Assembly (NCBI GenBank): GCA_003599505.1
Contig: QZKO01000023.1
Coordinates: 1 to 55,395, forward strand
Reading direction: 5' to 3'
Source of the DNA: Nitrospiraceae bacterium
Lineage (GTDB): Bacteria > Nitrospirota > Thermodesulfovibrionia > UBA6902
DNA: 55,395 bases
In this document: positions 9,939-46,271 of the stretch, one piece after another
How the letters are laid out: every line of letters starts with the position of its first letter
Position numbering within the stretch: the stretch's first letter is position 1
Translations under genes and position numbers: made by a program
Notes under the pieces: generated by a model
What the model was told of the DNA's origin: nothing
The model's database searches: none
Seen by the model: only the letters and a program-made list of their open reading frames with translations

Positions 9939-11873
9939 TCACATCCTGATGTAAGTAATTATATTTTGATAATCAGGCGTATGCAGAACATCAGCAGCTA
10001 AAAATTCAGCCTTAATTTTTGCTCCATATTCAGGAGAATAGTCATATTCGCCTTTTTTAAATTCACAGCGCCCTGCAGCCAATGAAGCTACTTTGTTATT
10101 GGATACGTTAGAAACAAGATCATTGCAAATATTTTTCAGGGATGGTGCCAAGTGAAATAAGAGTTCTGCATTCGTCTGATGAGAACTATGAAAATCATCT
10201 GTTATCTGCCAGTGACACGTCTTTTTGTCCAAAGTTATTATCCTTTTATGTGTAACATCAGCGTACCGAATCTCTCCCTCAAAAATCGATTTATCTACTG
10301 TGTCTGTCATCTCCGCCTTAACGATCCTTACCCTGTCAGTAAGGCTGAACATGCACTGCTCCGGAATATCGTTCTGCTCATAACCGTCAAACGCCACTGT
10401 ATTATGATACCCTGTAGAACGGAATTTATTTCTCTCTGACGGATTAGATGTATAGACATAAGTCCCCGGATCAACTATCACATCTTGTCCGTTGATCATC
10501 AACTCAAAACTCAATTTGTCGTTGTGAGCATGCCATCCGTCTCCACCGTTCGGCCCGCAGGAGACAAAACAATAATTATTTTCATGTCTCATAACATACC
10601 ATCCTGCATCCGGGAAAGAATGAGATTTAAGATAACCTTCTCTGAAATCTAAACTATCCCAGATAGTGATAGCTTTTTCACCAAATAACCAAAAGGCCTC
10701 TTCATCTAACTTAACCTGCCTTAACTTAAACGAATCATCTTTGAAATGAAGGGCAGCCAAACTCAGCAAATAACTATGGTCTAATCCGGCTCTTTTTGAA
10801 AACTGCAAGAAACGTCCGCTGTCGTTATCGCCAATCTGGGGGATCATCCCGTTCGGCTTGATGCAATACATCGACGCTTCAAACATTTTTCTAAGCTTCT
10901 TTACGTAGTCCTCTGAAAACTCGATGCCTGCACGCCTGCCAAGCAGTGCAGAATAGAAAAACATCTCAAGGGCCAACCGGTGATAAGATGTGGACGACTC
11001 AAAACTGCAGCCGTCGGGATAAACCTGTTTCTCCATTTCCCGGTGTAACTCGTTGAAGGCAAATTCCCGCCATTCACTGCTTTCCTTAAAAAACGGACAA
11101 TAAACTGATATAAAAAATAATCCTGCTATGTCGGCCAGGTAATGGTTCGTTGTCCATTTTCCGGCGTACTCCAGATGACCGCGAATGAATTTACCGTGCT
11201 CCCGGACACTGGCATGAAATTCCTCAATAAATTCCCCGGAAAACAGATCGTCTTCTGCAAAGTATTCCATTGCCACAAGCCAATTGACCGCCCGTATTGC
11301 AACATCCATTGCACATTTCCAGTTGACCCCAAAACAAAAGCGATTATTCCTTATCCAGTCGGTAATCTGACTTCCGACTTCGTCGGCGTATTTCCTGTTT
11401 CCGGATAAAATGTACGCGTGTCCCAGAATGTTCAAATGCTGGAAGCGGGACAGTTCCCACGGCACTTTGATATCGACACCCTCTTTATGTCCGACGGAAA
11501 TATCACGATAGAAGGTTTCAGTGTCCCATCGATAACCACTTTTGAAATCAATGTGCCAGTCTATGGGTTGATATCCCTTACCTTCGGGACTTAATTTTTT
11601 GTCCCCGCTTCCAAGGAGATCGAAATGATGCCCGCAAATTACATCAGCCTCCTTAATTTTTCTTTCCATATTCGCCGGGAATACCTTCCGGTACATATCG
11701 GCTGCATTTTTTGTACGGGCATCTTCAGGAAGCAGAAACCATCCGGGGACCGAAATTGCCGCACTTTCGGGTCTTCGATAAAAGAAAAGGAAATAGATAT
11801 GCTCTGATTTATTCAATATTGTTTTGAGAATCTTACGGGGTACTTTTATAAATAAAAAGGTCAATGCCTTCAT
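9939..11873 (-). CDS. Heparinase II/III family protein (alginate-lyase type)
   Basis: A 644-residue protein with an N-terminal helical toroid (roughly residues 100-400, including WHIDFKSGYRWD, VPWELSRFQHL, WTTNHYLADIAGL and FESSTSYHRLALEMF). It continues into the heparinase II/III beta-sandwich with GWHAHNDKLSFEL, IVDPGTYVYTSNP and RSTGYHNTVAFDG, which contain candidate catalytic His and Tyr residues. Family members cleave uronic-acid polysaccharides by beta-elimination. In EPS operons they may trim or modify the polymer. No clear signal peptide is visible, so how it would reach exported polymer is unclear. It overlaps wecB by 4 nt (ATGA), implying translational coupling. A longer paralogue is at 50765-53119. 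Confidence 0.88.
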   Translation of the reverse strand: MKALTFLFIKVPRKILKTILNKSEHIYFLFFYRRPESAAISVPGWFLLPEDARTKNAADMYRKVFPANMERKIKEADVICGHHFDLLGSGDKKLSPEGKGYQPIDWHIDFKSGYRWDTETFYRDISVGHKEGVDIKVPWELSRFQHLNILGHAYILSGNRKYADEVGSQITDWIRNNRFCFGVNWKCAMDVAIRAVNWLVAMEYFAEDDLFSGEFIEEFHASVREHGKFIRGHLEYAGKWTTNHYLADIAGLFFISVYCPFFKESSEWREFAFNELHREMEKQVYPDGCSFESSTSYHRLALEMFFYSALLGRRAGIEFSEDYVKKLRKMFEASMYCIKPNGMIPQIGDNDSGRFLQFSKRAGLDHSYLLSLAALHFKDDSFKLRQVKLDEEAFWLFGEKAITIWDSLDFREGYLKSHSFPDAGWYVMRHENNYCFVSCGPNGGDGWHAHNDKLSFELMINGQDVIVDPGTYVYTSNPSERNKFRSTGYHNTVAFDGYEQNDIPEQCMFSLTDRVRIVKAEMTDTVDKSIFEGEIRYADVTHKRIITLDKKTCHWQITDDFHSSHQTNAELLFHLAPSLKNICNDLVSNVSNNKVASLAAGRCEFKKGEYDYSPEYGAKIKAEFLAADVLHTPDYQNIITYIRM

Positions 11874-12964
11874 TTATTCGATAAGATCGTTACAATTCTC
11901 TTTGCAGTTTTCCCGTCCCACAATTCCGGAATGCTGCCCTTCTTACTATCTCCGTTAAGAATATTATGAACATGTCTCATTATTTTCTTATGTTCTCTTC
12001 CGACCAGATAATTTGACCCCTTCGATACAGTGACAGGTCTTTCTGTGTTCTCGCGCATTGTCAAACAGGGAATATGCAGAACGGTCGTCTCTTCCTGTAT
12101 CCCGCCGGAATCGGTCAGGACAAAGAGGGAGTCCTTGACCAGTTTAATAAAATCAACGTACCCAAGGGGGTCAATCATTATAAATCTGTTCAGCCCCTGA
12201 AATTTCTTTAGGAAGCCGTGCAATTTTATCATTTTCAACGTTCGGGGATGGACCGGATAAATTATCTGTACTTTCTGAGCGATTGTCTCAAGAATGTCGA
12301 TTATTTCAGAAAGTGATTCTTTGGAATCAACGTTACTGGGACGGTGCAATGTCATCACGCAATACTTCTTCTTCATTAAATTAAGTTTATTAACGATGCC
12401 GGATTTATTAATTACAGTCCGGTTGGCCAGCAAGGTATCTATCATGATATTGCCCACAAAATGGACCTTTTCCGCATGAACGCCTTCTGTATTTAAATTC
12501 TTCAAACCGCTTTTTTCGCTGACAAACAGGAAATCCGAAAGGGAATCCGTGACTATCCGGTTAATTTCTTCAGGCATTGTCCTGTCAAAGCTCCTCAGAC
12601 CCGCCTCGACATGCGCAACTTTGACATTCATTTTCGACGCCACCAGGGAACAGGCGACAGTTGAATTCACATCACCGACAACAATAACAAGATCAGGTTT
12701 TTCCCTTAAAACCACCTTTTCAAAGGCCGTCATAATCGTCGAAGTCTGGACCGCATGAGACCCCGAACCGACATTTAAATAAATATCAGGCTTCGGAATG
12801 TTCAGATTCTGGAAGAAAACCTCCGACATTTTGTAGTCATAATGCTGACCGGTATGAACAAGATTGACCTTAAAACTATTCCTGTGCTTATTAAACTCCT
12901 TCATCAACGGCGCTATTTTCATGAAATTGGGCCGCGCGCCCGCAACTATAATTACTTTCTTCAT
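11870..12964 (-). CDS. wecB: UDP-N-acetylglucosamine 2-epimerase (non-hydrolysing)
   Basis: Interconverts UDP-GlcNAc and UDP-ManNAc in the cytosol, supplying a precursor for amino-sugar-containing polysaccharide. The 364-residue length fits the family. Motifs: VAGARPNFMKIAPL at the N-terminus, HTGQHYDYKMSEVFF, VVGDVNSTVACSLVA, HVEAGLRSFDRTMPEEINR and the C-terminal DSGGIQEET, all diagnostic of the non-hydrolysing epimerase with its UDP and allosteric sites. An AAGGA-rich leader (GAAGGATTTAAAGG) precedes the ATG. It overlaps the heparinase-like gene by 4 nt and is separated from the upstream epimerase gene by 372 bp, so a separate promoter is possible. Confidence 0.95.
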   Translation of the reverse strand: MKKVIIVAGARPNFMKIAPLMKEFNKHRNSFKVNLVHTGQHYDYKMSEVFFQNLNIPKPDIYLNVGSGSHAVQTSTIMTAFEKVVLREKPDLVIVVGDVNSTVACSLVASKMNVKVAHVEAGLRSFDRTMPEEINRIVTDSLSDFLFVSEKSGLKNLNTEGVHAEKVHFVGNIMIDTLLANRTVINKSGIVNKLNLMKKKYCVMTLHRPSNVDSKESLSEIIDILETIAQKVQIIYPVHPRTLKMIKLHGFLKKFQGLNRFIMIDPLGYVDFIKLVKDSLFVLTDSGGIQEETTVLHIPCLTMRENTERPVTVSKGSNYLVGREHKKIMRHVHNILNGDSKKGSIPELWDGKTAKRIVTILSNK

Positions 12965-13336: not shown

Positions 13337-14266
13337 TCACGCTGTTTTAAAATATTCATACGTCCTCTTTAATCCTTCTGAAATGGAAACTTTCGGTCCC
13401 CACCGGAGTGTTTCTTTTGCTCTTGAAGAGTCAATCACGCTTCGCCTTTGCTCTCCTTTCTTGGGAGGGCCGAATTCCTTTTTGACGGAGGGGGCCATAA
13501 TATCCGCCAGATGATCGAATATTTCATTAATTGATGTCTCCAGACCTGTGCCGACATTAAAAATATTCTCTGAACTATCGCTTGTAAAAGCCAAAAGGTT
13601 GGCCTGAACAACATCTCCCACATATACGAAATCCCTTGTCTGGCAGCCGTCTCCGTTTATGAAAGGTTGTTCTCCACTGAGCATTTTCTGAATAAAGATT
13701 GCGACGACGCCGGCTTCTCCAAAAGGGTCCTGACGCGGGCCATAAACATTTGCGTACCGCAGTATTACGTGGTCCAGATTAAAGACGTTTTTATAATAAT
13801 AAAGATAATGCTCGGCAACCAGCTTTGTAATTCCGTATGGGCTTAACGGCCTCAAAGGATGGGTCTCCGGCGCCGGAAATATATCCTGCTCTCCATAAAT
13901 CGCCCCCCCGGATGAGGCAAATATTACTTTTTTCACGTCATATTTAAGGCAGTTCTGGAAAACATTTATTGCTCCCAGGACATTGACTTTTGCATCAAAT
14001 ATCGGGTCGGATACGGAACGACGAACATCCATTTGAGCGGCCTGGTGGCTGACATAGTCAGGGCGCTCCCTTCTAAACACGTCCTCCAGCCCCACATCCC
14101 GGATATCCAGCCTGTAAAACCTGGCCCTGTCATTTATGTTTTTCTCCTTCCCCGTAGAAAGGTCATCCACGACTATGACCTCGTATCCTTCTTCTATAAG
14201 GCTGTCAGAGATATTTGAGCCGATAAATCCTGCCCCCCCTGTTACCAGTACCTTCACTTTTCCCAT
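13337..14266 (-). CDS. NAD-dependent nucleotide-sugar epimerase/dehydratase (GalE-like)
   Basis: An extended short-chain dehydrogenase of 309 residues. It has the NAD-binding glycine motif VTGGAGFIGSNIS, the DDLSTGKEKN segment typical of UDP-glucose 4-epimerase relatives, the catalytic Ser region FASSGGAIYG and YGITKLVAEHY with the YxxxK pair. RYANVYGPRQDP and GDGCQTRDFVYVGD complete the substrate-binding region. It most likely epimerises UDP-glucose or UDP-GlcNAc (or the uronic acids) at C4 to feed EPS assembly; the exact sugar is not decidable. It starts 16 bp after the Wzz/Wzc-like gene, so it is in the same transcript as the export genes. Confidence 0.9.
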   Translation of the reverse strand: MGKVKVLVTGGAGFIGSNISDSLIEEGYEVIVVDDLSTGKEKNINDRARFYRLDIRDVGLEDVFRRERPDYVSHQAAQMDVRRSVSDPIFDAKVNVLGAINVFQNCLKYDVKKVIFASSGGAIYGEQDIFPAPETHPLRPLSPYGITKLVAEHYLYYYKNVFNLDHVILRYANVYGPRQDPFGEAGVVAIFIQKMLSGEQPFINGDGCQTRDFVYVGDVVQANLLAFTSDSSENIFNVGTGLETSINEIFDHLADIMAPSVKKEFGPPKKGEQRRSVIDSSRAKETLRWGPKVSISEGLKRTYEYFKTA

Positions 14267-14282: not shown

Positions 14283-15902
14283 TCAAGTCAATTTGTAAAC
14301 AATATCGGGAAGAGGAAACTTTCGATTATTCAATATTACACCGATAACGTTGCTTTTCTTTTCCTCAAGCCGGTTAATTATATCTTTAATCACCAATCGT
14401 CTGGTTTCACCTTCATTCAGAACAATCACTACCCCGTCTGTAAGAGCGGAGACCGCCAGCATATCCGAAAGATTCTTCACATGCACATGCCAGTAGATAA
14501 AAACCAGGTCATAGCTCTCCTCAGCCATTTTAATCACATCGGACATCACCGACGTCTCTAATAATGCAAGCGGATGAACGGACGTATTGCCCGAAGTAAT
14601 AATGTTTAAATTTGAGTCCAGACTCTGGATCGAATCCTCAAAAGAGACCCTCCCGTTAAGCACATCCGTAAGACCGATTTTATTATCTGCGTCAGCAATA
14701 TGATTTCTCGAAGAAGAACTCACATTTGCGTCAATGAGCAGCACTTTAAGGCCCGTGTTGCCGTTGAAAGTATGTGACAGGCAATAACTGAGATTGGCAA
14801 CGACAGAAGGAGCGACTTCCGCAGAATCGGTATTTATGATAACAATACTCTTGAAATGTCTCTCTTTCACGTAGAAATATAATTGATTAGATAAATGCTG
14901 ATATGCCTCGCTGACCTTTGCATCAGGACTGAAATTATCATTCAGAGTACTGTTCTTCCGGCCTCTTGTTTTAGGAATAGAGCCTAATAACGGCACATTA
15001 AGATGTGTTTCGATGTCCCTGGGAGATGAAAACGTTTGCTTAAAATGTTCAATTCCAAACGCAATAACAACACCCGACATTATGCTCATAATGAAAGCAA
15101 TAGCGCGTAAACCGGATGTTGAAGGCTTCATCGCCACCGGTGAACTCTCCCTTGCCTGAGCTACTATCTTGACCCCGGCAGGACCAATGGCTTCAATATC
15201 GGGAATCAGGCGGCCATCAAGAGTTTCTTCCAGTTTGTTAATATGCTGTTGTAATTTCTGAATTGTAGAATGTTTCTCGCCATAAACCAGTTGAAGATCG
15301 GCAATCTGCTGTTCGAGGTCAAAGATAACATAAGATCGACTTATAGAGTTGGCTAAAATGACTGCTATTTCAGGATCAAAGTCTCTGACGTTTATTATGA
15401 ACAGGGAAGTTTCCCCGGCCTGATATGCCTCTACTTGTCCGCTTAACTGTTCCAAAGCGTTCTGAAAGAGATATGCCTGCCTCTCCGTCGGGTTCATCTT
15501 ATCAAGCGCGCTTTTGAATTTTTCCATCGATCTGTCAATCAAAATGCGCTTTAGTCTGGGGGCAAAGCGTCTTTCAAAATCGAGGGGGCGGTTATCCAGC
15601 CGGAGAGCATTGACCACTCGTTCCATAACCGGTTTCGCTGTCACCATTTCGATTACAGTATCTATTGGCGAGCCAAAGCCAAAATCCTTAGTATCCTGAG
15701 GGCCTCCCGTGCGTATATCTCTCTGCGTCATTCTGCTCAGCAACATCTTAACCTGTGCCTCGTAAACAGGTGTCCTGAGCTCAGTTGCAATATAAACGGT
15801 TGTCATTATGACGAAGAAACTGCTGATAATTACGGCCTTGTGTCTGAACAAGACTGCTATCACATCCCTGAGAGTTGTTTCTTTTATGTCCATTTTTTTC
15901 AT
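14283..15902 (-). CDS. Wzz/Wzc-like chain-length determinant with degenerate BY-kinase domain
   Basis: Inner-membrane polysaccharide co-polymerase of 539 residues. A Wzz domain has TM1 at about 24-42 and TM2 at about 265-285, flanking a periplasmic region with a coiled-coil stretch near 195-230. From residue about 330 follows a tyrosine-kinase-like P-loop domain (SEAYQHLSNQLYF). However, Walker A, normally GEGKS, reads NTDSAEVAPSV (357-367) with no Gly-Lys-Ser/Thr, and Walker B, normally IIDTPP, reads FIYWHV. Walker A' (VLLIDANV) is kept. There is no tyrosine cluster at the C-terminus. I infer an inactive kinase that keeps the fold for control of chain length. It starts 3 bp after the SLBB exporter gene and belongs to the same operon. 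Confidence 0.85.
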   Translation of the reverse strand: MKKMDIKETTLRDVIAVLFRHKAVIISSFFVIMTTVYIATELRTPVYEAQVKMLLSRMTQRDIRTGGPQDTKDFGFGSPIDTVIEMVTAKPVMERVVNALRLDNRPLDFERRFAPRLKRILIDRSMEKFKSALDKMNPTERQAYLFQNALEQLSGQVEAYQAGETSLFIINVRDFDPEIAVILANSISRSYVIFDLEQQIADLQLVYGEKHSTIQKLQQHINKLEETLDGRLIPDIEAIGPAGVKIVAQARESSPVAMKPSTSGLRAIAFIMSIMSGVVIAFGIEHFKQTFSSPRDIETHLNVPLLGSIPKTRGRKNSTLNDNFSPDAKVSEAYQHLSNQLYFYVKERHFKSIVIINTDSAEVAPSVVANLSYCLSHTFNGNTGLKVLLIDANVSSSSRNHIADADNKIGLTDVLNGRVSFEDSIQSLDSNLNIITSGNTSVHPLALLETSVMSDVIKMAEESYDLVFIYWHVHVKNLSDMLAVSALTDGVVIVLNEGETRRLVIKDIINRLEEKKSNVIGVILNNRKFPLPDIVYKLT

Positions 15903-15905
15903 ATG

Positions 15906-17222
15906 TCAGAGGATGCCTGATGAAACTACCACTATATCATTTGGTTTAAGAAGGATATCAGCCTCCGGATGTCCCTTTAAAACATCATTTATATTAACGG
16001 TTATCCTCTCTATTTTTGTATCATCGGCAGTCTTCCTTAATACCTTAACCCTGCTCTCAGAGCCCCATTTTGTCAAACCACCGGCCATGGTCAGGGCCTT
16101 CATGACTGTAATATCTTTCTCAAGCGGAAATACTCCGACTCTATTTACCTCTCCATACATTAAAAACTCTTTACTGCGTTCAACTATCACAATGTCATCC
16201 GGCTGAAGAAGCAGGTCATCCTGAACAGTGCCGTCAATAATCCCTTTAATGTCAATTTCCATATCATCAAACCCCGGGCCATCCTGCCGCATGCGTCTTA
16301 ATTTAACCTTTCCATATTGTCCGGCATCCTTTATGCCTCCAGCCAATGTAATGGACCGGGATACTGTCATTTCATCCTCAAGTACGTATTGTCCGGGTAC
16401 GGTGACCTCGCCTGCAACAAAAACCGTTTCATTGCGTTCCACGATCACTATATCGTCCGGTTGAAGGAGCATATCCTCGATATCGTTTCTTTTTATGATA
16501 CCTTTCTTCAGACCTGAATCTCCTACAGTTTCATATCCAAATTCTGCCACCCGCTTGCGCCTTACCTTTATTTTCCCATATAACCCACTTTTATCTATTA
16601 TGCCTCCCGCTACCGCTATTGCGCGTGACACAGTCATATCGTCTTCAAGGATATATTGTCCAGCTTTATTAACTTCACCCTGAATAAAGAATGTTTCGCT
16701 GCGCTCCAATATCACGATATCATCCGGTTGAAGGAGCATATCCTCTATGTCTTTATTTTTAATATTTCCTTTATGAAGACCCGATTCTCCTACTGTTTTA
16801 TACCCGCCACCGGGTCCCACAATGCGTCTCACTTTTACTTTCCCGTAAAGACCGCTATCTCTTATGTTCCCCGCCATTGATAATGCCCGTAATACTGTCA
16901 TGCCATCCTCAAGTTCAAGTCGTCCGGGAGATACTATCTCCCCCTGAAGAAAAATTGTTTTACTGCGTTCAACAATTACAATATCGTCCGATCTTAGCAA
17001 CATATCCTCTATATTTTTGTTCTTAATAACTCCTTTATAAAGACCTGATTCCCCTATCGTTCTATATCCGCCGCGGCCTTCAGCGCGTCTCACCTTTACC
17101 GTGCCGTAAAGGCCGGTATCTCTTATACCACGAGCCAACGATAAAGCCATTACCACAGTCATATCTTTTTCAAAAGGTATGGCGCCGGTCAGCCCTACCT
17201 CTCCGTGGATATATACCCGTTT
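15906..17222 (-). repeat. Intragenic tandem repeat, five units of about 258-267 bp (SLBB expansion)
   Basis: Unit starts at protein residues 106, 192, 280, 369 and 455 give periods of 86, 88, 89 and 86 codons. Units 2-4 are the most alike at protein level, sharing GDSG/GESG-L-x-KG-x-IK-x-DIEDMLLQPDDIVI. The likeness points to internal duplication followed by divergence. Confidence 0.85.
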
Positions 17223-17537
17223 ACTTGAGGTTTGCATTAAAGATATTGTAACAACCGGATGCTTAATATAACCCGCGGCGAGTTTTCTCGTTATTTCTTC
17301 CTCCACTTCAGCCAGTGTCCTGTCTTTAACATAGATACTTCCTAAATTAGGGAAAGATATTGTGCCATCTATTGAAATATGAGATAAAAAACTCAAATCA
17401 TCATGGCCCTCAACTTTGATGTTGATCACGTCGTTTATTCCAAGTTTGTATAATTCGGTCTTTTGAGCGTATCCGACTGATAACTGGGTTATTACTAACC
17501 CAATAATTACCAGCATTATGAAAGATATACGTTTCAT
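15906..17537 (-). CDS. Wza-like polysaccharide export protein with five tandem SLBB repeats
   Basis: A 543-residue export protein. Residues 1-24 are a signal peptide (no lipobox Cys, unlike E. coli Wza), 26-103 a Poly_export domain (YKLGINDVINIKVEG, ISIDGTISFPNLG). Five SLBB-type units then begin near residues 106, 192, 280, 369 and 455, each with the pattern GEV-x-G-x(6)-MTV-x(3)-A-x(3)-AGGI followed by KVRR, and most ending in DIEDMLLQPDDIVIVERS. Wza-type proteins normally have one to three such units. It forms the periplasmic and outer-membrane conduit for EPS. It sits between the sugar transferase (39 bp upstream) and the Wzz/Wzc-like gene (3 bp downstream). Confidence 0.92.
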   Translation of the reverse strand: MKRISFIMLVIIGLVITQLSVGYAQKTELYKLGINDVINIKVEGHDDLSFLSHISIDGTISFPNLGSIYVKDRTLAEVEEEITRKLAAGYIKHPVVTISLMQTSSKRVYIHGEVGLTGAIPFEKDMTVVMALSLARGIRDTGLYGTVKVRRAEGRGGYRTIGESGLYKGVIKNKNIEDMLLRSDDIVIVERSKTIFLQGEIVSPGRLELEDGMTVLRALSMAGNIRDSGLYGKVKVRRIVGPGGGYKTVGESGLHKGNIKNKDIEDMLLQPDDIVILERSETFFIQGEVNKAGQYILEDDMTVSRAIAVAGGIIDKSGLYGKIKVRRKRVAEFGYETVGDSGLKKGIIKRNDIEDMLLQPDDIVIVERNETVFVAGEVTVPGQYVLEDEMTVSRSITLAGGIKDAGQYGKVKLRRMRQDGPGFDDMEIDIKGIIDGTVQDDLLLQPDDIVIVERSKEFLMYGEVNRVGVFPLEKDITVMKALTMAGGLTKWGSESRVKVLRKTADDTKIERITVNINDVLKGHPEADILLKPNDIVVVSSGIL

Positions 17538-17576: not shown

Positions 17577-19061
17577 TTACTTCGCACCGGTCCCCAACAA
17601 TACGACTGGAATGGTCTTAAATAATATCCTCAAATCAAGTCCCAAAGACCAGTGGTCGATATATTCAAGATCGAGTCTCATCCATTCCTTGAAGTCGGAA
17701 ATCGTGTTCCTTCCGCTTGCCTGCCAGAGACACGTTATCCCCGGCCTCATACTGAGCCTTCTCCTTTGCCATGTATCATAATTTTCTACTTCAGACAGTA
17801 ACGGCGGCCTCGGACCAACCAGGCTCATATCCCCTTTTAATACGTTCCATAACTGAGGCAGCTCATCCAGACTGTATTTTCTGAGCCACTTGCCGACGTT
17901 CGTTACTCTCGGATCGTTTGTCATTTTAAAAACGGGCCCTGTCATCTCATTATACTTGAGCAGCTCCTTAACTTTCGATTCAGCGCCCTCTATCATGGTC
18001 CTGAACTTGTAAAACATGAACTTTCTGCCGTAAAGACCGCATCTTAACTGTTTATATAAAACAGGGCCTTTTGAAGTTGCTTTTATCAGGATTACTATAA
18101 GAAGAAATAACGGCAATAATACCACAAGCGCAATCGCCGATGCGGCAAAATCAAATAAGCGCTTTATGAAAAGATGCCCCAGCTTCCCCGGTGTACTGTC
18201 AAACGCAATCAGGGGAAAGCCGTTAAGGTCGGTCTGTTTCGCCCTTGAAAATCTGAAATTGAACAGATCAACAGCAAGATACACTTTTATCCCGGCGCTT
18301 TCACAGTAAAGCATTACATCTTCTATCTTTGTGAGCCATGAGCGCGGCACGACAAATACTATTTCATCCACAATATTATTGTGTATTATTGCGGGTATGC
18401 TTTCCAACGAACCTATCACCTCGTGCCCACGGATATATTCTCCCTCTTTATGAGCATCAATATCAAGCACCCCCAAAATTTTGATGCCCCATGCAGGGTT
18501 GTTGTCAATCAGGTCAATAAAGGTCTTGGCCCTCTTGCTTGTACCTACTATCAGGACCCTTCTGAAGAAGATTAAGGCGCTCCTGAAATTTGAGTCTCTC
18601 TTACTGAGTATTTTAAAAATATAAACAAGCACGATCTTCTCGATACAAATCAGCACCGAGGCAAAAAGGAAAGTAAAACCTATGAATAACCTGCTGATGT
18701 CTTCCTGCATCCTCAAAATAAAAATATAACTCCCCAAAATAATGAACCCGATAATGGCTGATTTCGCTATTATGAACAGCGCATCCGGAATTCTCGTGAC
18801 GCCTGAAAATTTATACATTCCAAAATATGTCAGAAGGCTGCCCCAAACAACTAACATCACAGGTAACAGCCCTACATATACCACATAATAGCCGATTGAG
18901 CGAAGACTCTCATCTGACAGATATATCCTGAGCAAACTTGCAGGGAAAAAATGCAGTATCTCATTTCTAAGGAAGTAACCTATAAAAAAAGCTGCCGCCA
19001 CTAAAACGAGGTCAGTAAAAAGCTGGACTCTTTTAAATAATTTATTCTGTTCTTTAATCAT
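17577..19061 (-). CDS. Undecaprenyl-phosphate sugar phosphotransferase (WbaP/EpsE-type initiating transferase)
   Basis: The 494-residue protein starts EPS repeat synthesis by moving a sugar-1-phosphate from a nucleotide sugar to undecaprenyl phosphate. About four TM segments fill residues 15-145, followed by a CoA-binding-like Rossmann region (RRVLIVGTSKRAKTFIDLI). A further TM at about 280-300 precedes the bacterial sugar transferase domain. Catalytic-domain marks are YKFRTMIEGAE, KYSLDELPQLWNVLKGDMSL, VGPRPPLLSEVE and RPGITCLWQASGRN. This architecture is the exopolysaccharide polyprenyl glycosylphosphotransferase family. It lies 5 bp after the barrel protein gene in the same operon. The transferred sugar is unknown. 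Confidence 0.93.
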   Translation of the reverse strand: MIKEQNKLFKRVQLFTDLVLVAAAFFIGYFLRNEILHFFPASLLRIYLSDESLRSIGYYVVYVGLLPVMLVVWGSLLTYFGMYKFSGVTRIPDALFIIAKSAIIGFIILGSYIFILRMQEDISRLFIGFTFLFASVLICIEKIVLVYIFKILSKRDSNFRSALIFFRRVLIVGTSKRAKTFIDLIDNNPAWGIKILGVLDIDAHKEGEYIRGHEVIGSLESIPAIIHNNIVDEIVFVVPRSWLTKIEDVMLYCESAGIKVYLAVDLFNFRFSRAKQTDLNGFPLIAFDSTPGKLGHLFIKRLFDFAASAIALVVLLPLFLLIVILIKATSKGPVLYKQLRCGLYGRKFMFYKFRTMIEGAESKVKELLKYNEMTGPVFKMTNDPRVTNVGKWLRKYSLDELPQLWNVLKGDMSLVGPRPPLLSEVENYDTWQRRRLSMRPGITCLWQASGRNTISDFKEWMRLDLEYIDHWSLGLDLRILFKTIPVVLLGTGAK

Positions 19062-19066: not shown

Positions 19067-20353
19067 TCAAAAACTCACTGACAGCCCTGCACCCACGCCA
19101 ACTCTCGAATAGTTTCGGTCTTCATCAGTTGAAGTTAGGTTTGAATAAGTATATCCCATATGCCCTTTGACCGATTTTCCCAGTTTGTCTTGCCAGAAGT
19201 TGTAGGATATATCAAAAGCTGCCCCGACAAAGGTATCGGTAGTGCCTGCTGATACAAAATCCCCCTGGCCGTAAAAACCTGAGAGGGAAATATTCAAATC
19301 TTTCAGCAAGGCCCTGCTCACGTTGCCCGAGACCTGCCAGTTCTTGAAAACGTCTTCAGTCTGGGGGGATATATCCACTCCTCTGGAATAGGCTAACCTT
19401 GCCGCTGTTTTTTTATCGACCTCGCCTGACAGCGCGGCCTCGATATCAGTGCTTTCATCGTTATTTGATAAAACGTCCATGCCGGCTCTTGCTTCTGCAT
19501 AAAGTCGTTCGGTTATATATTGCCTTATACCTGCTCGGACCCTCTGAATATAAATATTTGATCCGGTCTCATATCTGCTATTTTCATAATCGTATGACAT
19601 CGAAAAAACAGTCGCGGCGCTTAATTCATAATTAGCGCTGAAACTGACACCGTTCTGGTCCGAATCAGTTGTTCCCTCCTCAGGAGACCATCTTCGACTG
19701 AATTGGTAACCGGCTGTAATATTAAGATGTTCAGCTATGTCCCTGCCGTACGTCAAGTTTACAGTATTGCTGTATGAATCAAGCCTTCCGGAGATTCTGC
19801 CGAACTCTTCCGTAAATTTTTCGCATTCTGGAAATAATCTTACTGCCTGGTCCCCGCCGAATAAATCGAACAGCTTCTCACACTGCTCACGGTTAAACCC
19901 CTCATCTATCGTCCCCGGGACCTGGGTATGGGTATAGGTATTGGAAACGGTGACGCGGTCATACGGCGTAAACTCATTTCTGAATATGACGTTTACCCTT
20001 TCAGAGGAATTTTCAAGAGTGCCTTCTTCTGTAAGGATCTGCCTGTTGAGGAGCCCGCTCAGCCCCACTGAATGTCTGGGCCTTTCATATTTCAAGGCAG
20101 CGCCAAGATTAAAATTGGTAAGCAAATCTTCCACCCTGTCTTCATTTTTCGAAGCATAAGTTACGTTATTACTGTAACTTTCGGCTACTTGCCCTTCTAC
20201 CTTTAGGCTTAATCCTTTATAAGGTGGGAATTCGTAAGCATTTGCAGAGGCTGCAATAAACACAATTAAGGCCCAACACACTGCAACACATAACGTCAAA
20301 AAACATCTTTTTGTCACCTGACGATATGTACGTAATAATTTATTAACGTGCAT
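19067..20353 (-). CDS. Outer-membrane beta-barrel protein of the EPS/PEP-CTERM system
   Basis: The 428-residue protein has a basic N-terminus and a hydrophobic signal segment (about residues 18-39, CVAVCWALIVFIAASANA) with cleavage near ANA-YEF. The remainder is made of alternating beta-strand sequences rich in Tyr, Asn and Ser, for example VEGQVAESYSNNVTYAS and NVTYASKNEDRVED, and ends with GVGAGLSVSF, the terminal Phe expected of a BAM substrate. It resembles the PEP-CTERM-associated barrel proteins (TIGR03016-like) placed first in such EPS operons, probably an outer-membrane EPS channel or anchor. It is the promoter-proximal gene of the minus-strand operon. Confidence 0.75.
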   Translation of the reverse strand: MHVNKLLRTYRQVTKRCFLTLCVAVCWALIVFIAASANAYEFPPYKGLSLKVEGQVAESYSNNVTYASKNEDRVEDLLTNFNLGAALKYERPRHSVGLSGLLNRQILTEEGTLENSSERVNVIFRNEFTPYDRVTVSNTYTHTQVPGTIDEGFNREQCEKLFDLFGGDQAVRLFPECEKFTEEFGRISGRLDSYSNTVNLTYGRDIAEHLNITAGYQFSRRWSPEEGTTDSDQNGVSFSANYELSAATVFSMSYDYENSRYETGSNIYIQRVRAGIRQYITERLYAEARAGMDVLSNNDESTDIEAALSGEVDKKTAARLAYSRGVDISPQTEDVFKNWQVSGNVSRALLKDLNISLSGFYGQGDFVSAGTTDTFVGAAFDISYNFWQDKLGKSVKGHMGYTYSNLTSTDEDRNYSRVGVGAGLSVSF

Positions 20354-35472: not shown

Positions 35473-36141
35473 ATGAAGAACCTGTTAATATTTCTGTTTG
35501 TTCTTGCTGCGGTTTCCGGATTCTCCACGCAGTCTTATGCGGGCCTGGAGCTGCGCGGCACAGACAGCCTCGGCGTCAGGTTAATCTACGACAGTGACCT
35601 TGATGTCACGTGGTACGATCATACGAATTCGTATAATACGTGGCAAAATCAGATGGACTGGGTCTCTGCCCTGACTGTGGATTTCGGTGGGACTATTTAT
35701 GATGACTGGCGTTTGCCGTCGACGGTAGATGGTATATTCTCTTTAGGTTATGACGGCACAACCACAGCCGGCTACAATATAACAAGCAGTGAAATGGGGC
35801 ATCTGTTCTATACCGGGCTTGAGAACAAGGGATATTGTGACGCTTCCGCTAATTGTCCACAGCCCGGCTGGGGTCTGACAAACACAGGGCCTTTTCTGAA
35901 TCTGCGGCCGTACACCTACTGGTCCGGCACGGAATACGCCGCCGATACAGTCTTCGCCTGGAGCTTCAGCAACAATTACGGCTACCAGGGCAGTTACAAT
36001 AAAGACTACAACCCCTATTACGCCGTTGCCGTCCGTCCGGGCGACGTCGCAGTCGTGCCTGAACCGGTGTCAATGATGCTGTTCGGCATCGGCGCTGTGT
36101 TATTGGTTGCGCTCAGGATAGTGATCAGGCGGCGCGGATAA
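35473..36141 (+). CDS. PEP-CTERM sorted protein with DUF1566 (Lcl C-terminal-type) domain
   Basis: A 222-residue exported protein. Residues 1-23 are a signal peptide (LLIFLFVLAAVSGFSTQSYA). The core is a DUF1566 domain: LIYDSDLDVTWYDHTN, YDDWRLPSTVDG, YWSGTEYAADTVFAWSFS and YYAVAVRPGD. The C-terminal 28 residues form the sorting signal: VPEP motif, a hydrophobic segment (VSMMLFGIGAVLLVALRIVI) and a basic RRRG end. XrtA would cleave near the PEP motif and pass the protein to the surface, probably in contact with EPS. A sigma-54 promoter stands upstream. Confidence 0.92.
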   Translation: MKNLLIFLFVLAAVSGFSTQSYAGLELRGTDSLGVRLIYDSDLDVTWYDHTNSYNTWQNQMDWVSALTVDFGGTIYDDWRLPSTVDGIFSLGYDGTTTAGYNITSSEMGHLFYTGLENKGYCDASANCPQPGWGLTNTGPFLNLRPYTYWSGTEYAADTVFAWSFSNNYGYQGSYNKDYNPYYAVAVRPGDVAVVPEPVSMMLFGIGAVLLVALRIVIRRRG

Positions 36142-36175: not shown

Positions 36176-37573
36176 TCAACCTGCTTCATCTTTAATAGTT
36201 AATTTATATTTGTCGATTAAATCATAGAGAGTCGGTCTGCTTATTCCTAATTCTTCAGAGGCCCGTTTAATATTACCTCTGTGCCGCATTATCACGTTTT
36301 CAATAAGGTCTTTCTCAAGCCTGTTGCGCGCTTCTTTCAAAGTCATCTTTTCATACTTCCCGCCCTGATTCTCGCCGGTAATTCCCTTTTTAAACTGGTT
36401 CTCCAAACCCATATGATGAGGCTCTATAATATGAGAATCCGCCGTGATAATCGCCTTCTGAATTTTATTTTCAAGCTCCCTGACGTTGCCCGGCCACGGA
36501 TAGCTACCGACCGCTTCGAGGGCTTCCCGGCTGAAGCCTTTTATTTTTTTCCTGAACACGAACTTATATCGTTCAAGAAATGTTTTCGCGAGCAGCAATA
36601 CATCATCTCCGCGCTCCCGCAAGGGAGGGATGCTGATCGATATTACGCTTATTCTGAAAAAAAGGTCCTCGCGGAACTGTTTTTCCTTCATCGCGTTATT
36701 CAGGTCGATATTTGTTGCCGCTATTATACGTGTATCGATCTCTATATCACTCCTGCCGCCGATTCTCTGGACCTTTTTCTCCTGGAGGAACCTTAAGAGC
36801 TTGGACTGAAGTCTCGGGGACATCTCTCCGATCTCGTCAAGGAAAAGGGTCCCTTTATCAGCGTATTCAAACTTGCCGAGCTGCTGGACATACGCGCCGG
36901 TGAACGCGCCTTTTTCATGTCCGAACAACTCGGATTCCAGGAGGGTTTCCGGTATCGCGCCGCAATTGATCGGGATAAAGGGTCCTTTATTCCTTGAGCT
37001 TTTTTCATGGACCGCGCGCGCCACCAGCTCCTTCCCGGTGCCGCTCTCTCCCGTGATCAGCACTGCCGCGTCAGTTGAGGCGACTTTATGAATCGTTTCA
37101 AAAATTTTCAGCATACCGGCGCTCTGCCCGATCATCCCGGCAAATCCCGCTTCCTGCTCGATAATCGTGTGGAGTTTCAGGTTTTCCCTTTCTATCTCAT
37201 GGAGGTGCCAGGCCCTTTGCAGGATTATTTTAAGCTCATTCATGTTTACCGGCTTGAGATAGTAATCATAAGCGCCTATCTGCACCGCCTTGAGCGCGTT
37301 TTCCCTGTCGTTATTGCCCGTAACTATAATAACTTTTGTATCAGGCGCCTGACTAAGGATTTCCTGCAGGCACGACAGTCCTTCACTTGCCCCGTTTTCA
37401 TCAGGAGGCAGACCGAGATCAAGGGTCACGACAGGGGGGTGTTTTGCCTTAAACAGGTTAATCGCAGAGGTCCTGTCGGACGCCTGAAGGATTTCATATC
37501 CTTCGGACAGTCCCCATTTAATATGGGTCCGGATATCAGGATCGTCTTCAACTATGAGTAACAGTTTCATCAT
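36176..37573 (-). CDS. prsR: PEP-CTERM system sigma-54-dependent response regulator PrsR
   Basis: A 465-residue NtrC-type activator. The receiver domain (about 4-120) has phosphoacceptor Asp52 in VVTLDLGLPP and Lys in YYLKPVN. The AAA+ domain has Walker A GESGTGKE at 174-182, the sigma-54-binding GAFTGA in GHEKGAFTGAYVQ, Walker B GTLFLDEIGEM and the arginine-rich REDLFFRISV. A Fis-type helix-turn-helix ends the protein (IKRASEELGISRPTLYDLI). Matches the exosortase-associated regulator family. With PrsK it is expected to turn on PEP-CTERM genes; two sigma-54 boxes in this window fit. It lies at the 3' end of the run prsK, PP-loop, phosphodiesterase, prsR. Confidence 0.93.
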   Translation of the reverse strand: MMKLLLIVEDDPDIRTHIKWGLSEGYEILQASDRTSAINLFKAKHPPVVTLDLGLPPDENGASEGLSCLQEILSQAPDTKVIIVTGNNDRENALKAVQIGAYDYYLKPVNMNELKIILQRAWHLHEIERENLKLHTIIEQEAGFAGMIGQSAGMLKIFETIHKVASTDAAVLITGESGTGKELVARAVHEKSSRNKGPFIPINCGAIPETLLESELFGHEKGAFTGAYVQQLGKFEYADKGTLFLDEIGEMSPRLQSKLLRFLQEKKVQRIGGRSDIEIDTRIIAATNIDLNNAMKEKQFREDLFFRISVISISIPPLRERGDDVLLLAKTFLERYKFVFRKKIKGFSREALEAVGSYPWPGNVRELENKIQKAIITADSHIIEPHHMGLENQFKKGITGENQGGKYEKMTLKEARNRLEKDLIENVIMRHRGNIKRASEELGISRPTLYDLIDKYKLTIKDEAG

Positions 37574-39935: not shown

Positions 39936-42005
39936 TTATTCTGCCGCAAGCGGCAAAAAGACTGCAAAAGAGGTCCCCCGGCCTTCCACGCTGTCTACTG
40001 TCAATTTGCCGGAATGAGCATCAATTATTGTCTTGCACTGATAAAGACCTATTCCGAGCCCTTTCTTCTTGGTGGTCTGAAAAGGCTTAAAAAGTCTCTT
40101 CTCAATAAAATCCGGGGACATTCCGCATCCGTTATCGGTTACTTTTATAAAAGCCATGGAATTCCCGGCGCCTATGTTAATTTTAATCGCGCCCCGGGTC
40201 CCGGCGGCGTCAATTGCATTCATGATCAGGTTAATAATAACTTTTATTATTTCCTCCCTGTCGATTTTCGTATAAACCGGTCCTGCCTCTGTAAAAGATA
40301 ATTTCGGGTCTCCGTTCATATTAAGTTGAGAGACGGCCGACCTGACGCATGCTCCCAGGTCTGAATATTCAAGTTCAAGACTTGTTTTAGCCGGAAGATT
40401 CTTAAGTCTTTCTATAATCCCCTTGATCTTTTCGGAAGTATTGGAAACCGCCCGCATCGCGTCTCTCTGGAAATCAGGATTATCGATATGCTCCTCCGCG
40501 TTATGCGCTATCAGTGAAAGCATGGAAACCGCGTTCTTGAGGTCATGTATTATAAAAGATGATAACCTTCCCACTGCTTCCATTTCCTTTGCTTCGGTCA
40601 ATTCCACGGAAAGCTTTGAATTCATAATAGCCGAAGTCGCCTGTTTAGCCAGGGTTTTCAGGAGATCATAATCCTCGTAATTATACTCATCACCGCTCAG
40701 TCCTTCCTTCAGGATTACAAACCCTATAAGGTCTTCAATATGAAAGAGGGGGACTATAAGAGATGTTTCCGTATTCTCAAGAAAACTTTTATGGATCTCG
40801 ACAATCTCTTTGCATTTATTGTCATCGACATTCAAAATCCATTTTTTGCTCTGTAAAAACTCTATAAGTCCCTTATCGGGGCCTTCCTTAATCACGTCAT
40901 TTTCAGGGCCTGTAACACAGTGGTATTCTCCATTATCTTTTTCTTTCAGCCATACCGATGCCCCCCGTGAGCCAATGGCTTCTTTAAATTCCCCGGCTAT
41001 CGACTCCAGGAGTTCTTCGGATGTATGTTTCAATGAAATACGCTGCGTAAACCGGAGCCATTGTTCCCTGTAATCATATTTTGAACTGTAAAAATTCTTG
41101 CTTATGAAAACCAGGGCCTTTCTCCTTAACTGCTCCGACAGGAGCGCCGTCATAATCAAAATCGCGCCGGCAAAACCAAGGAAGGTCGTAATATTTTTCC
41201 CAACCTGGGGACCCATATAACGCATTCCCTCGCCTACTATGCCGAGGCCGAGGAGATAGAATCCTACGACAAATATACTGACAGACCTGAAAAGAATTTT
41301 TCGGGATATGGCGATCTCAACATGCAAGGCCTTATGTTTGAAAATGGAAAGCCCTATTAAAAGAGCAGAAACCAGGATAACGCCTTCTCTTACGGGAAGA
41401 AGCTCCATATTCAACGAGCGATAAAGCAGGGCATAACTGTAATAAAAAATATTCATGGCAATGATGCTGCCTGCTCCCATAATAGTGTATTTAATTTGCC
41501 ATTTGCCGATTCCCGAGGAACTTCTTAATGTTGCTTCCAGGTTTATGATCGATACGATAGAGTAAAATAAAAGCAAAAGGTTAAAAATATATCCTGTATT
41601 CTCCAGAAAAAGAGTTTTTTCGATATCGAATTCCGGAGAATAAAAAAAATCCTCAACCGGTTTTGCCGTGAAGAAATAGATAAATAGCGGAGATGCTAAT
41701 AATAATGCCCTGGAGAATTTGCTGACAGCTCCCCAATAGTCAACACGGGCAAAGCTCATCGAAAATAAGAGCCATGAGGTGACCATTACAGCCTCGGCAA
41801 TAAAAACGATCCTTTTCCATGTTACAAGCGATTCAGGTCTAAGCACACACAATGAATCGCCTCCAATCACTACCGCGGTCGAGAGGGCGCTGAGAAAAAA
41901 AGCAATATGGGAAATACGGTGATATTTTCTGAATAGGACCACAAATGCGATGAGGATGAGGGACAGTACCGCGAGTGTTGAAAGTATGACTATAACCGTC
42001 TCCAT
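39936..42005 (-). CDS. prsK: PEP-CTERM system membrane histidine kinase PrsK
   Basis: A 689-residue sensor kinase. About eight hydrophobic segments fill residues 1-300, a GAF-like domain spans roughly 320-470 (LLESIAGEFKEAIGSRGASV, SLIVPLFHIEDLIGFVIL), the phosphoacceptor is His487 in SSFIIHDLKNAVSML, and the ATPase has NLIMNAIDAAGTRG (N box), KVTDNGCGMSP (G1) and KGLGIGLYQCK (G2). This matches the exosortase-associated kinase family that partners PrsR. Unlike the usual adjacent pair, two enzyme genes separate it from prsR. The upstream 269 bp is shared with a divergent Crp/Fnr gene. Confidence 0.93.
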   Translation of the reverse strand: METVIVILSTLAVLSLILIAFVVLFRKYHRISHIAFFLSALSTAVVIGGDSLCVLRPESLVTWKRIVFIAEAVMVTSWLLFSMSFARVDYWGAVSKFSRALLLASPLFIYFFTAKPVEDFFYSPEFDIEKTLFLENTGYIFNLLLLFYSIVSIINLEATLRSSSGIGKWQIKYTIMGAGSIIAMNIFYYSYALLYRSLNMELLPVREGVILVSALLIGLSIFKHKALHVEIAISRKILFRSVSIFVVGFYLLGLGIVGEGMRYMGPQVGKNITTFLGFAGAILIMTALLSEQLRRKALVFISKNFYSSKYDYREQWLRFTQRISLKHTSEELLESIAGEFKEAIGSRGASVWLKEKDNGEYHCVTGPENDVIKEGPDKGLIEFLQSKKWILNVDDNKCKEIVEIHKSFLENTETSLIVPLFHIEDLIGFVILKEGLSGDEYNYEDYDLLKTLAKQATSAIMNSKLSVELTEAKEMEAVGRLSSFIIHDLKNAVSMLSLIAHNAEEHIDNPDFQRDAMRAVSNTSEKIKGIIERLKNLPAKTSLELEYSDLGACVRSAVSQLNMNGDPKLSFTEAGPVYTKIDREEIIKVIINLIMNAIDAAGTRGAIKINIGAGNSMAFIKVTDNGCGMSPDFIEKRLFKPFQTTKKKGLGIGLYQCKTIIDAHSGKLTVDSVEGRGTSFAVFLPLAAE

Positions 42006-43066: not shown

Positions 43067-43708
43067 TTATTTCTTTCTCCGCCTTGCGTAGAAGGCTGCG
43101 CCGATTAGCCCTGAACCGAGGAGCAGTAAAGTACCGGGCTCCGGAACGGGTGTAAGCTCCAGATCAAAACTGGATTGTCCCGGACCTCTGTGCGTTAAAG
43201 TGGCGATCCCTGTCAGAGAGAAAGAAGCGGGTATTGAAACAGGGTAGCTGTCAACTGAACCGCTGAAAGCTCCGGGGCCGAATACACCTAAGCTCCCAAG
43301 CAGAGTGCCTTCATCAAATAAAGAGCTCCCCATCCACGTTTCAAAGCTTGCCGTTCCACCTGCCGTTCCGCCGACTTTTGTGCTGAACCCGGGTTCGGTC
43401 GCGCTGAATCCCGTGTCACCAAATTTTATCGTCAGGGTGCCGCCTCCCGTGGTATTGACATTAACGGAATTCAGATCCAGATATGGGATGGTGGTCAGGC
43501 CTGTGCTTACATTAATGTCAAACACGCCCACCGCACCGATAAAAGTAACTACACCAGAAGTCGGATTGCTGTCTCCAGCCAAGCCATCGGTAATAGTAAC
43601 GGTATTTTCAGGTACACCATCACTTAATTCCAGTGTAGGTATTGCGAAAACAGATTGAAATCCAAGTCCGACAAATACCGCCAATATAAACAATAATATT
43701 TTCTTCAT
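43067..43708 (-). CDS. PEP-CTERM sorted protein of unknown core
   Basis: A 213-residue exported protein. Signal peptide residues 1-22 (ILLFILAVFVGLGFQSVFA). The middle (about 25-185) is a beta-rich, Gly/Thr/Ser-rich region with no family I recognise; a choice-of-anchor-type sandwich is possible. The last 26 residues are a textbook sorting signal: VPEPGTLLLLGSGLIGAAFY then ARRRKK. Expected fate: cleavage by XrtA and surface display with EPS. It has a strong AGGAGGT ribosome site and a sigma-54 promoter 71-85 bp upstream. Confidence 0.92.
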   Translation of the reverse strand: MKKILLFILAVFVGLGFQSVFAIPTLELSDGVPENTVTITDGLAGDSNPTSGVVTFIGAVGVFDINVSTGLTTIPYLDLNSVNVNTTGGGTLTIKFGDTGFSATEPGFSTKVGGTAGGTASFETWMGSSLFDEGTLLGSLGVFGPGAFSGSVDSYPVSIPASFSLTGIATLTHRGPGQSSFDLELTPVPEPGTLLLLGSGLIGAAFYARRRKK

Positions 43709-44805: not shown

Positions 44806-45432
44806 TTATTCAGGCAAATAACCTGCCAAAAGAGGCAGGAAATCCTGAATGGCGGCCTCTAAAACAAACTTTGCCTCGCCTTTATCTTTTTCAACCGGTG
44901 TCGAAAACCTTATAAAGGCCGCGTCGTTTCTCCCATACCTTACTGAATTCAGTATCATATATAATTTCAAGACATATTCGTTGGTAATAAACGCATCTTT
45001 TATTTGATACCAGTAAATAAACACTTCCCTCTCCGTACCTTTCCGGTAAACGGCCTCTGTAACATCAATCTTTCCTACTCCGTCAATATTGAAACTCCTT
45101 GTCTTCTCGGAAAGCCTGAACCATCCGCCGCCGGGAAGACAATGTTTCGGCGAATGAATCTGCGCCCCTTCCTTCTGGGCGCCGTAATAACCGATATACA
45201 GGTTGATCACGTTATCCCCTTTTTTATATTCTCTCGCCATGTACTCGCTCGCCCGCAGCTTATCAAGCACCTTATCGTCGAAATAATATGCCTTCCCTTC
45301 CCATCCCTTCCACTGAAGCGGAAATTCATCAAATGCTTTCTTCATAGGCACTATTTCATGGAACGGGAATACCTTGATATACAACGCGAACGCGATGATA
45401 ATGATGGATGAAACAATTAATCTTCTGTTCAT
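44806..45432 (-). CDS. epsI: EpsI family protein of the exosortase A system
   Basis: 208 residues: one N-terminal membrane anchor (about 5-22, VSSIIIIAFALYIKVFPF), then a periplasmic EpsI domain with FPLQWKGWEGKAYYFDD, INLYIGYYGAQKEGAQIHSP, KHCLPGGGWF and EVFIYWYQIKDAFITNEY. EpsI is the usual partner of EpsH/XrtA, either as a separate protein or fused to it, and is needed for EPS formation in studied systems; its chemistry is unsettled. It begins 2 bp after xrtA and ends the operon. Confidence 0.93.
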   Translation of the reverse strand: MNRRLIVSSIIIIAFALYIKVFPFHEIVPMKKAFDEFPLQWKGWEGKAYYFDDKVLDKLRASEYMAREYKKGDNVINLYIGYYGAQKEGAQIHSPKHCLPGGGWFRLSEKTRSFNIDGVGKIDVTEAVYRKGTEREVFIYWYQIKDAFITNEYVLKLYMILNSVRYGRNDAAFIRFSTPVEKDKGEAKFVLEAAIQDFLPLLAGYLPE

Positions 45433-45434
45433 CG

Positions 45435-46271
45435 TTATCCTTTGCTCTTGACCTTTCCAAGAACCACGGCGGACAATATCAGCAGCGCGATCGCTACGCC
45501 GAATATCATAAGCCCCCCGAATTCGTGAAAGAAACCTTCTGCTGCTGCGGCTCCATGTCTATCAGCAAGAACGCCCGTGCCTATAATCCTTAAGGCGTTC
45601 ACAAACACGGCGATCGGGACCGCGAGAACAACAAGTATAAACTTTTTTATCCGTCCCTTCTGCGTCAAATATGCAAGGGCTGTTGACAGGGCGAGCAGAG
45701 AAACAACAGACCTTATCCCGCTGCACGCGTCCGCTACCTCAAGCGTCGTACCCGCGAGATGGATAATATTCCCTTCCCGCAAAACAAGAACGCCTGTTAA
45801 GGACAGAAATTCTACCGAGAACTTTGACACAAAGAGCTTCAAAGGAAATGCGACAGAATCATAAAGCAGGTAAGGCATCGGTATCATGAATACAAGATAA
45901 ATGAACGGGAAAGACACGGCTTTGAAAAATCCGGGGCCGAACGAAAATATCACTGCCCCCGCAAGCACAACAAGCATCGAAAGCCTCATGGAGAACGACT
46001 CGCCCGAAAGATTGCCGATCAGGAAAATGACGAGTCCGGAAAACAATATTAAAAGACCCCAGTTCGACGGAGTTATGACAGCCGATTTCAAATTATCTTT
46101 TTTCTGCCAAAGCAGATAACCGGATATGAAAGGTATCAGAAAACCATGGGAGTAATTCTCGTCGTTGTACCAGTCCAAAACTACCTTGTAAGCGGTATCC
46201 CAGTACAAAAATCCAAAGGCGATCAGAGAGAATATGACCGGTACGATGTGGATTCTCTTATAATTTTTCAT
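45435..46271 (-). CDS. xrtA: Exosortase A (EpsH/XrtA)
   Basis: Membrane cysteine protease/transpeptidase-like enzyme that processes PEP-CTERM proteins. I start at ATG 46271, with GTGGAG 6-7 nt upstream, giving 278 residues; the frame is open further upstream, but that part reads as noncoding. About eight TM segments. The catalytic triad is visible: Cys183 in VADACSGIRSVVS, Arg228 in FVNALRIIG and His249 in AEGFFHEFGGLM. HGFLIPFISGYLLW near the N-terminus is also conserved. Followed 2 bp later by epsI. The window contains at least two substrates. Confidence 0.96.
   Translation of the reverse strand: MKNYKRIHIVPVIFSLIAFGFLYWDTAYKVVLDWYNDENYSHGFLIPFISGYLLWQKKDNLKSAVITPSNWGLLILFSGLVIFLIGNLSGESFSMRLSMLVVLAGAVIFSFGPGFFKAVSFPFIYLVFMIPMPYLLYDSVAFPLKLFVSKFSVEFLSLTGVLVLREGNIIHLAGTTLEVADACSGIRSVVSLLALSTALAYLTQKGRIKKFILVVLAVPIAVFVNALRIIGTGVLADRHGAAAAEGFFHEFGGLMIFGVAIALLILSAVVLGKVKSKG

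Follow-up and report, generated by a model that had tools for sequence, protein, structure and literature searches.

In the textbook model, a cycle of tyrosine phosphorylation assembles and disassembles the Wzc ring and so controls capsule and exopolysaccharide. In Wzc and CapAB this control works through the Tyr tail, which undergoes transphosphorylation. Phosphorylation has been found to affect the octamer (PMC11986026), and the known ring interface is formed in roughly equal halves by the EX2RX2R motif and the Y-cluster (PMC3795738). An experimental precedent for a phosphorylation-independent co-polymerase was reported in 2025 for EcpK/EpsV of Myxococcus xanthus (PMC12004946). A second precedent, described in that paper, is HfsB/HfsA, in which the dead domain of HfsB is needed along with the kinase-less co-polymerase HfsA; fused pseudokinase PCP-2 proteins (SMc01795, BCETI_6000729, Mlr8439, and VV1_2305) were noted earlier by Cuthbertson et al., cited there. 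Pseudokinase co-polymerases as such are therefore not a new phenomenon.

The co-polymerase gene of the window

The window is the whole stretch of DNA that was analysed, 55,395 nucleotides in length. Our analysis concerned an ORF on its minus strand (14283–15902), which starts with ATG and encodes 539 aa without an internal stop. The gene and its neighbours are as follows.

9939–11873, minus strand: heparinase II/III-like protein (same position in locus L065)
11870–12964, minus strand: UDP-GlcNAc 2-epimerase (same position in loci L065 and L116)
13337–14266, minus strand: NAD-dependent epimerase, next in the operon (same position in most Nitrospirota relatives whose flank is long enough)
14283–15902, minus strand: putative Wzz/PCP-2-type polysaccharide co-polymerase fused to a BY-pseudokinase domain, 539 aa (ORF, weak TIGR01007/TIGR03007 matches, AF2 model, Foldseek)
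15906–17537, minus strand: OPX/Wza-type outer-membrane polysaccharide export protein (Poly_export and SLBB domains, five GE[VI] repeat starts)
17577–19061, minus strand: initiating phosphoglycosyl transferase (TIGR03025 above cut-off)
19067–20353, minus strand: putative outer-membrane beta-barrel, BBP2_2 (same position in relatives)

Only 3 bases lie between the end of the OPX gene and the start of the co-polymerase gene. In most loci whose flanks are long enough, the barrel gene is again followed by those for the phosphoglycosyl transferase, OPX (SLBB), and co-polymerase; the epimerase usually comes next in Nitrospirota loci. In the relative G014, trp genes stand beside the operon as they do in the window, and Wzy_C and flippase genes are present too. 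The available flanks of the loci, which range from almost nothing to 10 kb, showed no further BY-kinase-like ORF, and an intact kinase adjoining the operon was likewise sought and rejected for the flanks examined. The length of the OPX protein differs by branch, being about 500–570 aa in 10 of the 11 loci measured in the Nitrospirota branch (the contig truncates the other one). Most Omnitrophota loci have an OPX protein of about 195–240 aa, yet the periplasmic domain of the co-polymerase stays within 206–245 aa.

No match to the window protein was found upon a Pfam search at 1e-3. In NCBIfam, TIGR01007 matched residues 332–527 at 1.5e-23 with 83.4 bits, below its cut-off of 108, and the rest of the protein gave weak Wzz-type matches, all under their cut-offs. 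Against TIGR03018 (XrtA-associated tyrosine autokinase) the protein scored 54.4 bits, the cut-off being 230.65, and it is not a member. A phmmer search of PDB matched CapA1/CapB1 (4jlv, 8.8e-19). The AlphaFold2 model from a 56-sequence alignment had a mean pLDDT of 87.1 and a pTM of 0.72; all structure models here are monomers. The predicted layout is as follows.

15780–15839, minus strand: first transmembrane helix, residues about 22–41 (model helix and hydrophobic sequence; limits approximate)
15117–15773, minus strand: short periplasmic domain, residues 44–262, 219 aa (family range 206–245 aa)
15042–15119, minus strand: second transmembrane helix, residues about 262–287 (AF2 model helix 262–287)
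14286–14930, minus strand: BY-pseudokinase domain, residues 325–539 (Foldseek target-normalised TM-score 0.79–0.91 to kinase domains)

In Foldseek the whole chain matched Wzc (7nhr) at 6.5e-25 with a TM of about 0.6, and the kinase-like domain matched those of Wzc, CapA/CapB, BceF, and Etk (3la6, 4jlv, 6z0p, 3cio) at the TM-scores listed. The kinase-like assignment made in the preliminary description has statistical support from the TIGR01007 (below cut-off) and 4jlv matches, and the kinase fold is predicted to be intact. Two predicted transmembrane helices flanking a periplasmic domain, with a BY-kinase-fold domain fused to them, correspond to the PCP-2a architecture. The periplasmic domain of intact-kinase co-polymerases measured 282–428 aa in nine of ten; that of the tenth, L025, is 213 aa.

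The motif positions were read from an alignment with intact BY-kinases of related genomes, and are listed below.

14889–14909, minus strand: alpha2 helix at the EX2RX2R site, EAYQHLS, residues 332–338
14805–14834, minus strand: P-loop remnant NTDSAEVAPS without Gly-Lys-Ser/Thr, residues 357–366
14718–14744, minus strand: Walker A' remnant VLLIDANVS, second Asp replaced by Asn, residues 387–395
14487–14507, minus strand: Walker B remnant LVFIYWH, Asp replaced by Tyr, residues 466–472
14286–14348, minus strand: predicted C-terminal strand and helix with the family signature, VIGVILNNRKFPLPDIVYKLT, at the site of the Tyr tail (family pattern count and AF2 model)

In the P-loop (N357-TDSAEVAPS-366), A364 stands at the position of the catalytic Lys and V363 at that of the Gly. 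The position of the Walker B Asp is taken by Y470, and only one Tyr, Y536, is found in the last 30 residues (0–3 in relatives). The preliminary description had already read a Walker A without GK[ST], a Tyr for the Walker B Asp, and the absence of a C-terminal Tyr cluster, and all three readings hold. It had also considered Walker A' as kept, which is right for the first Asp (D391) but not for the second, which is N393, so that there is no DxD; the usual Arg is S395. Since the second Asp and the Arg are also replaced, all three nucleotide motifs are damaged. Not on that earlier list is the loss of EX2RX2R, the alpha2 oligomerisation motif, whose positions read E332-Q335-S338 in the window; the ring motif is absent. 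As read from the alignment, then, the catalytic motifs are lost along with the ring motif and the Tyr tail, and the domain would presumably operate without ATP hydrolysis. The reading as a pseudokinase co-polymerase free of tyrosine phosphorylation, proposed in the preliminary description, is the best supported one, and the part about ATP hydrolysis is deduced from sequence.

Relatives across phyla and their conserved C-terminus

Our first search covered 61 related genomes and found full-length relatives at 32–46% identity in 14 other genomes; the one at 32% (L025, genome G019) carries intact kinase motifs. The wide scan covered 84,980 species genomes with two patterns, TLRDYLR.. and ANSVSRSYVI, both lying solely within the co-polymerase part, which means that the kinase defect played no role in choosing the sample. 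It gave 61 loci, nearly all from MAGs, in Nitrospirota, Omnitrophota, Planctomycetota (including Brocadiales), Auribacterota, Spirochaetota, Elulimicrobiota, and a few others, and the definition of the family rests on similarity to the window. The counts refer to 56 full-length relatives (18 in the Nitrospirota branch and 38 outside), which come from Nitrospirota, Omnitrophota, Planctomycetota with Brocadiales, Spirochaetota, and Auribacterota, with 11 intact kinases as controls. The window protein and all 56 relatives are single chains, not the bipartite arrangement with a separate pseudokinase.

None of the 56 relatives has the P-loop Lys, which is present in 11/11 controls. The first Arg of EX2RX2R is Q/H in 41/56 relatives and Arg in 11/11 intact kinases, and the second is S/A in 49/56. 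In Walker A', the second Asp is replaced by Asn in 46/56. Outside the Nitrospirota branch the loop Gly is retained in 29 of 38 relatives, and relatives outside Nitrospirota have a Lys-less loop which is often GTTT/GSTT. Judging from these counts, the losses look stepwise: those of the Lys, second Asp, ring motif, and tail would be family-wide, and those of the loop Gly and Walker B Asp would belong mainly to the branch of the window. Because the nucleotide site is largely kept outside the Nitrospirota branch, absence of nucleotide is not established for the family as a whole. The domain might then be a nucleotide-sensing scaffold, in which loose nucleotide binding, with no phosphorylation, switches ring assembly. 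The common GTTT/GSTT loop, the first Walker A' Asp (D391 position, kept in 53/56), and the Walker B Asp kept in 31/38 are consistent with this, but the Nitrospirota branch, where the loop Gly is found in 0/18 and the Walker B Asp in 1/18, argues against it, and we regard it as unlikely.

A shifted ATP-binding motif, which the preliminary description had named as an alternative, was looked for, and no candidate was seen in the sequence. GK[ST] strings are present within region 320–539 in 30/56 relatives, but, judging from the alignments, they appear to be an NEGKT stretch that follows a late strand, where the window has NEGET and an intact kinase GGKT, and were rejected as a shifted P-loop.

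In a tree of the kinase-like domains, a single branch (SH-aLRT 98) separated the pseudokinases, 57 rows which take in a distant Pelobacter row (L101), from the 11 intact kinases, and a set with a support of 98 was made up of 18 rows, most of them from Nitrospirota and one of them the window, in a quick search without bootstrap that left many inner branches unresolved. The dN/dS of the dead domain was 0.037–0.182 (NG86, nine pairs), similar to that of the co-polymerase part (0.053–0.263). The dead domain is therefore under purifying selection in the pairs tested; among the relatives collected, none was close enough to the window gene for a dN/dS of its own.

These results bear on the possibility that the gene decayed recently in a single lineage and that its kinase domain is a passive remnant. 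The branch of the window is long (0.87), so its domain may have drifted beyond the rest of the family, and more motif residues are missing from it than from most relatives, both as such decay would have it. However, the ORF is intact, the same losses are found in several phyla, related pairs are under purifying selection, and the window retains the conserved C-terminal signature. As the loss is common to a cross-phylum clade and the dN/dS of close pairs is low, we reject recent decay as extremely improbable, also in the form raised in the preliminary description, a recent pseudogenisation explained by an intact partner.

Three side observations were made among the loci. Some genomes carry two pseudokinase co-polymerase copies on separate contigs: L045/L047 (G010), L048/L050 (G030), and L052/L053 (G013). 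The Brocadia carolinensis gene lies in two overlapping frames (L093:1016–1873 and 1734–2621), owing either to a frameshift or to an error in sequencing. There is also a second group of Wzc-like proteins without the Lys, apparently an independent one (L039:343–3525 and L040:1495–3525, both minus strand, genomes G043 and G038), with the loop AGCSTT and Walker B FHAAP; the L039 frame runs on into an apparent cobalamin/radical-SAM-type domain (CxxxCxxC) to 1061 aa, which may be a real fusion or an assembly error.

Where intact kinases have the Tyr tail, the family ends in the signature LNNR-x-[YF]-x-IP-x-x-IY, and the tail is absent. This C-terminal pattern was found in 50/56 relatives and 0/11 intact kinases. 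In the window the end is predicted by AF2 to form a strand (519–527) and a short helix (533–538), with a pLDDT of 86 for the last block; in the predicted structure, an ordered helix takes the place of the Tyr tail.

Similar ends were found on Lys-less domains beyond the family. Our plasmid search showed a stand-alone 222-aa domain beside a kinase-less co-polymerase in Komagataeibacter (end ...LNRRHFYVPNYIYKHI), and fused domains in Azospirillum (end ...LTGRHFHIPQVIYRWL) and the acidobacterium Granulicella (end ...LNRRTYPIPHWLYRVL); the genome scan added one from a Pelobacter MAG (end ...LNRRRFFIPEFLYRIA). A Lys-less stand-alone protein of Hyphomicrobiales has a weaker version of the signature. 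The Alphaproteobacteria are represented among these similar ends by dead domains of both fused and stand-alone form. With HHalign, the Komagataeibacter and Azospirillum proteins matched the family alignment at 2.8e-13 and 1.3e-12, respectively. Plasmid matches in Rhizobium and Novosphingobium were rejected as extra pseudokinases, both having an intact GK[ST]. Tentatively, Lys-less domains ending in [LN]-x-R-x-[YF]-x-[IV]P-x-x-[IL]Y might form one old lineage of many phyla, in which the phosphorylation switch (Lys, EX2RX2R, and Tyr tail) gave way to a different interface of the ring, constitutive or contact-driven, when fused and stand-alone forms had not yet separated, the window family being its compact fused branch. 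The wider matches are few and were chosen by similarity, so they illustrate this idea and do not prove a general rule.

Other BY-kinases in the source genome and relatives

Two intact BY-kinases were found in the source genome, on contigs C7 and C57, and both are accompanied by a co-polymerase and export genes of their own. Contig C7 encodes an XrtA-type chain-length protein (TIGR03007), a tyrosine kinase (TIGR03018), an OPX protein, and a transferase; contig C57 encodes a 789-aa Wzc with intact motifs, an OPX protein, and a flippase. With two other export loci in the genome, the window operon is considered a third pathway with its own co-polymerase. A gene adjoining the intact Wzc on C57 (L115:10363–11133, minus strand, start MMIDIHSHILPAIDDG) resembles PHP-type tyrosine phosphatases (CpsB/YwqE). 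The window itself also carries, at 35473–36141, 36176–37573, 39936–42005, 43067–43708, and 44806–46406, an XrtA exosortase, an EpsI-like protein, a histidine kinase with its response regulator of the PrsK/PrsR-like kind, and a pair of proteins whose ends are PEP-CTERM-like; the XrtA polysaccharide core genes TIGR03007, TIGR03018, and TIGR03013 are on contig C7, away from these.

The presence of two intact kinases raises the question of regulation in trans, in which the C7 or C57 kinase would phosphorylate the pseudokinase, for example on Tyr 536. This residue is conserved in at least 90% of the family alignment, and the Brocadia and Kuenenia relatives carry an intact-motif Wzc as well. On the other hand, each intact kinase has co-polymerase and export genes of its own, Tyr 536 is single and helical in the model, and the relative G014 (MAG JdFR-81, also G075; 96% complete) keeps the operon although no other BY-kinase was detectable in it, the next match being ParA-type. 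We consider regulation in trans very unlikely.

The proteins concerned in Brocadia pituitae (L164:782–3307, minus strand) and Kuenenia hertensis (L165:735–3287, minus strand) are Wzc-like, of 842–851 aa, with intact GEGKT, DAD, and VDAPP; in both, a long insert separates Walker A' from Walker B and the Tyr tail is very short (DYYYG, GYYYKS). The idea that Brocadia pituitae (complete genome) has no active kinase agreed with the TIGR01007 search but was rejected when a looser TIGR03018 search led to this intact-motif Wzc with its large insert; the claim of no other kinase is therefore limited to G014/G075. LMW-PTP was absent from both G014 and the source genome. As the latter has intact kinases, this protein was discarded as an uninformative marker of phosphorylation control.

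Proposed mechanism and comparison with known systems

We propose that the window protein is quite probably the dedicated co-polymerase of one exopolysaccharide pathway, a phosphorylation-independent ring scaffold whose kinase has been dead since before the family spread across phyla. Its cytoplasmic domain would descend from a BY-kinase which lost catalysis before the family entered several phyla. Eight copies may still assemble beneath the membrane into a ring that is kept together by the fold along with the substituted surfaces of alpha2 and the C-terminus, which would take over from the EX2RX2R salt bridges and the Tyr tails. This assembly would set the position of the co-polymerase relative to the polymerase and export protein, and its assembly and disassembly would be governed by protein contacts (with OPX, the polymerase, or the growing chain) and not by a phosphorylation cycle. 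A contact-regulated scaffold is proposed because both halves of the known interface are missing while other conserved sequence is present. Computation shows or predicts the missing catalytic motifs, the retained fold, the selection, and the gene context, whereas the octamer, its interface, and its regulation are inferred; with the ring motif lost, it may equally be that no octameric ring forms.

That a large, old, and selected family keeps the domain while the chemistry is gone suggests a separate job for the shape of the domain. The C-terminal signature offers a simple handle for annotation, as databases may label such proteins autokinases, and a concrete site for mutagenesis. Extracellular polymers matter for granule formation in anammox bacteria, whose order Brocadiales is represented in the family.

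Compared with E. coli Wzc (PCP-2a), the window protein has the same fold and domain order (Foldseek 6.5e-25), but Wzc has active Walker motifs, EX2RX2R, a Tyr tail, and a larger periplasmic domain. The TIGR03018 autokinase accompanying TIGR03007 on contig C7 has a related domain, but it is stand-alone, with intact motifs, and scores above the family cut-off. The window protein combines a predicted BY-kinase fold with no catalytic residues and no Tyr tail, as expected of a phosphorylation-independent PCP-2. EcpK likewise has a BY-kinase fold in which catalytic motifs and Tyr tail are missing, ends in a C-terminal helix, and acts in a Wzx/Wzy exopolysaccharide pathway, which in M. xanthus includes an OPX protein and an outer-membrane beta-barrel as in the window operon (PMC12004946). 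By the description given there, however, EcpK is a separate protein with several secondary-structure elements missing and no Tyr in its C-terminal helix, and EpsV has a large periplasmic domain (PMC12004946). The same paper describes HfsB of Caulobacter crescentus, like the window protein, as a dead BY-kinase domain with a C-terminal helix, but HfsB and HfsA are two proteins; the examples of Cuthbertson et al., as cited there, resemble the window protein in joining co-polymerase and dead BY-kinase in one chain. The window family is a large branch, apparently undescribed in the open-licence literature, of these recently recognised pseudokinase co-polymerases.
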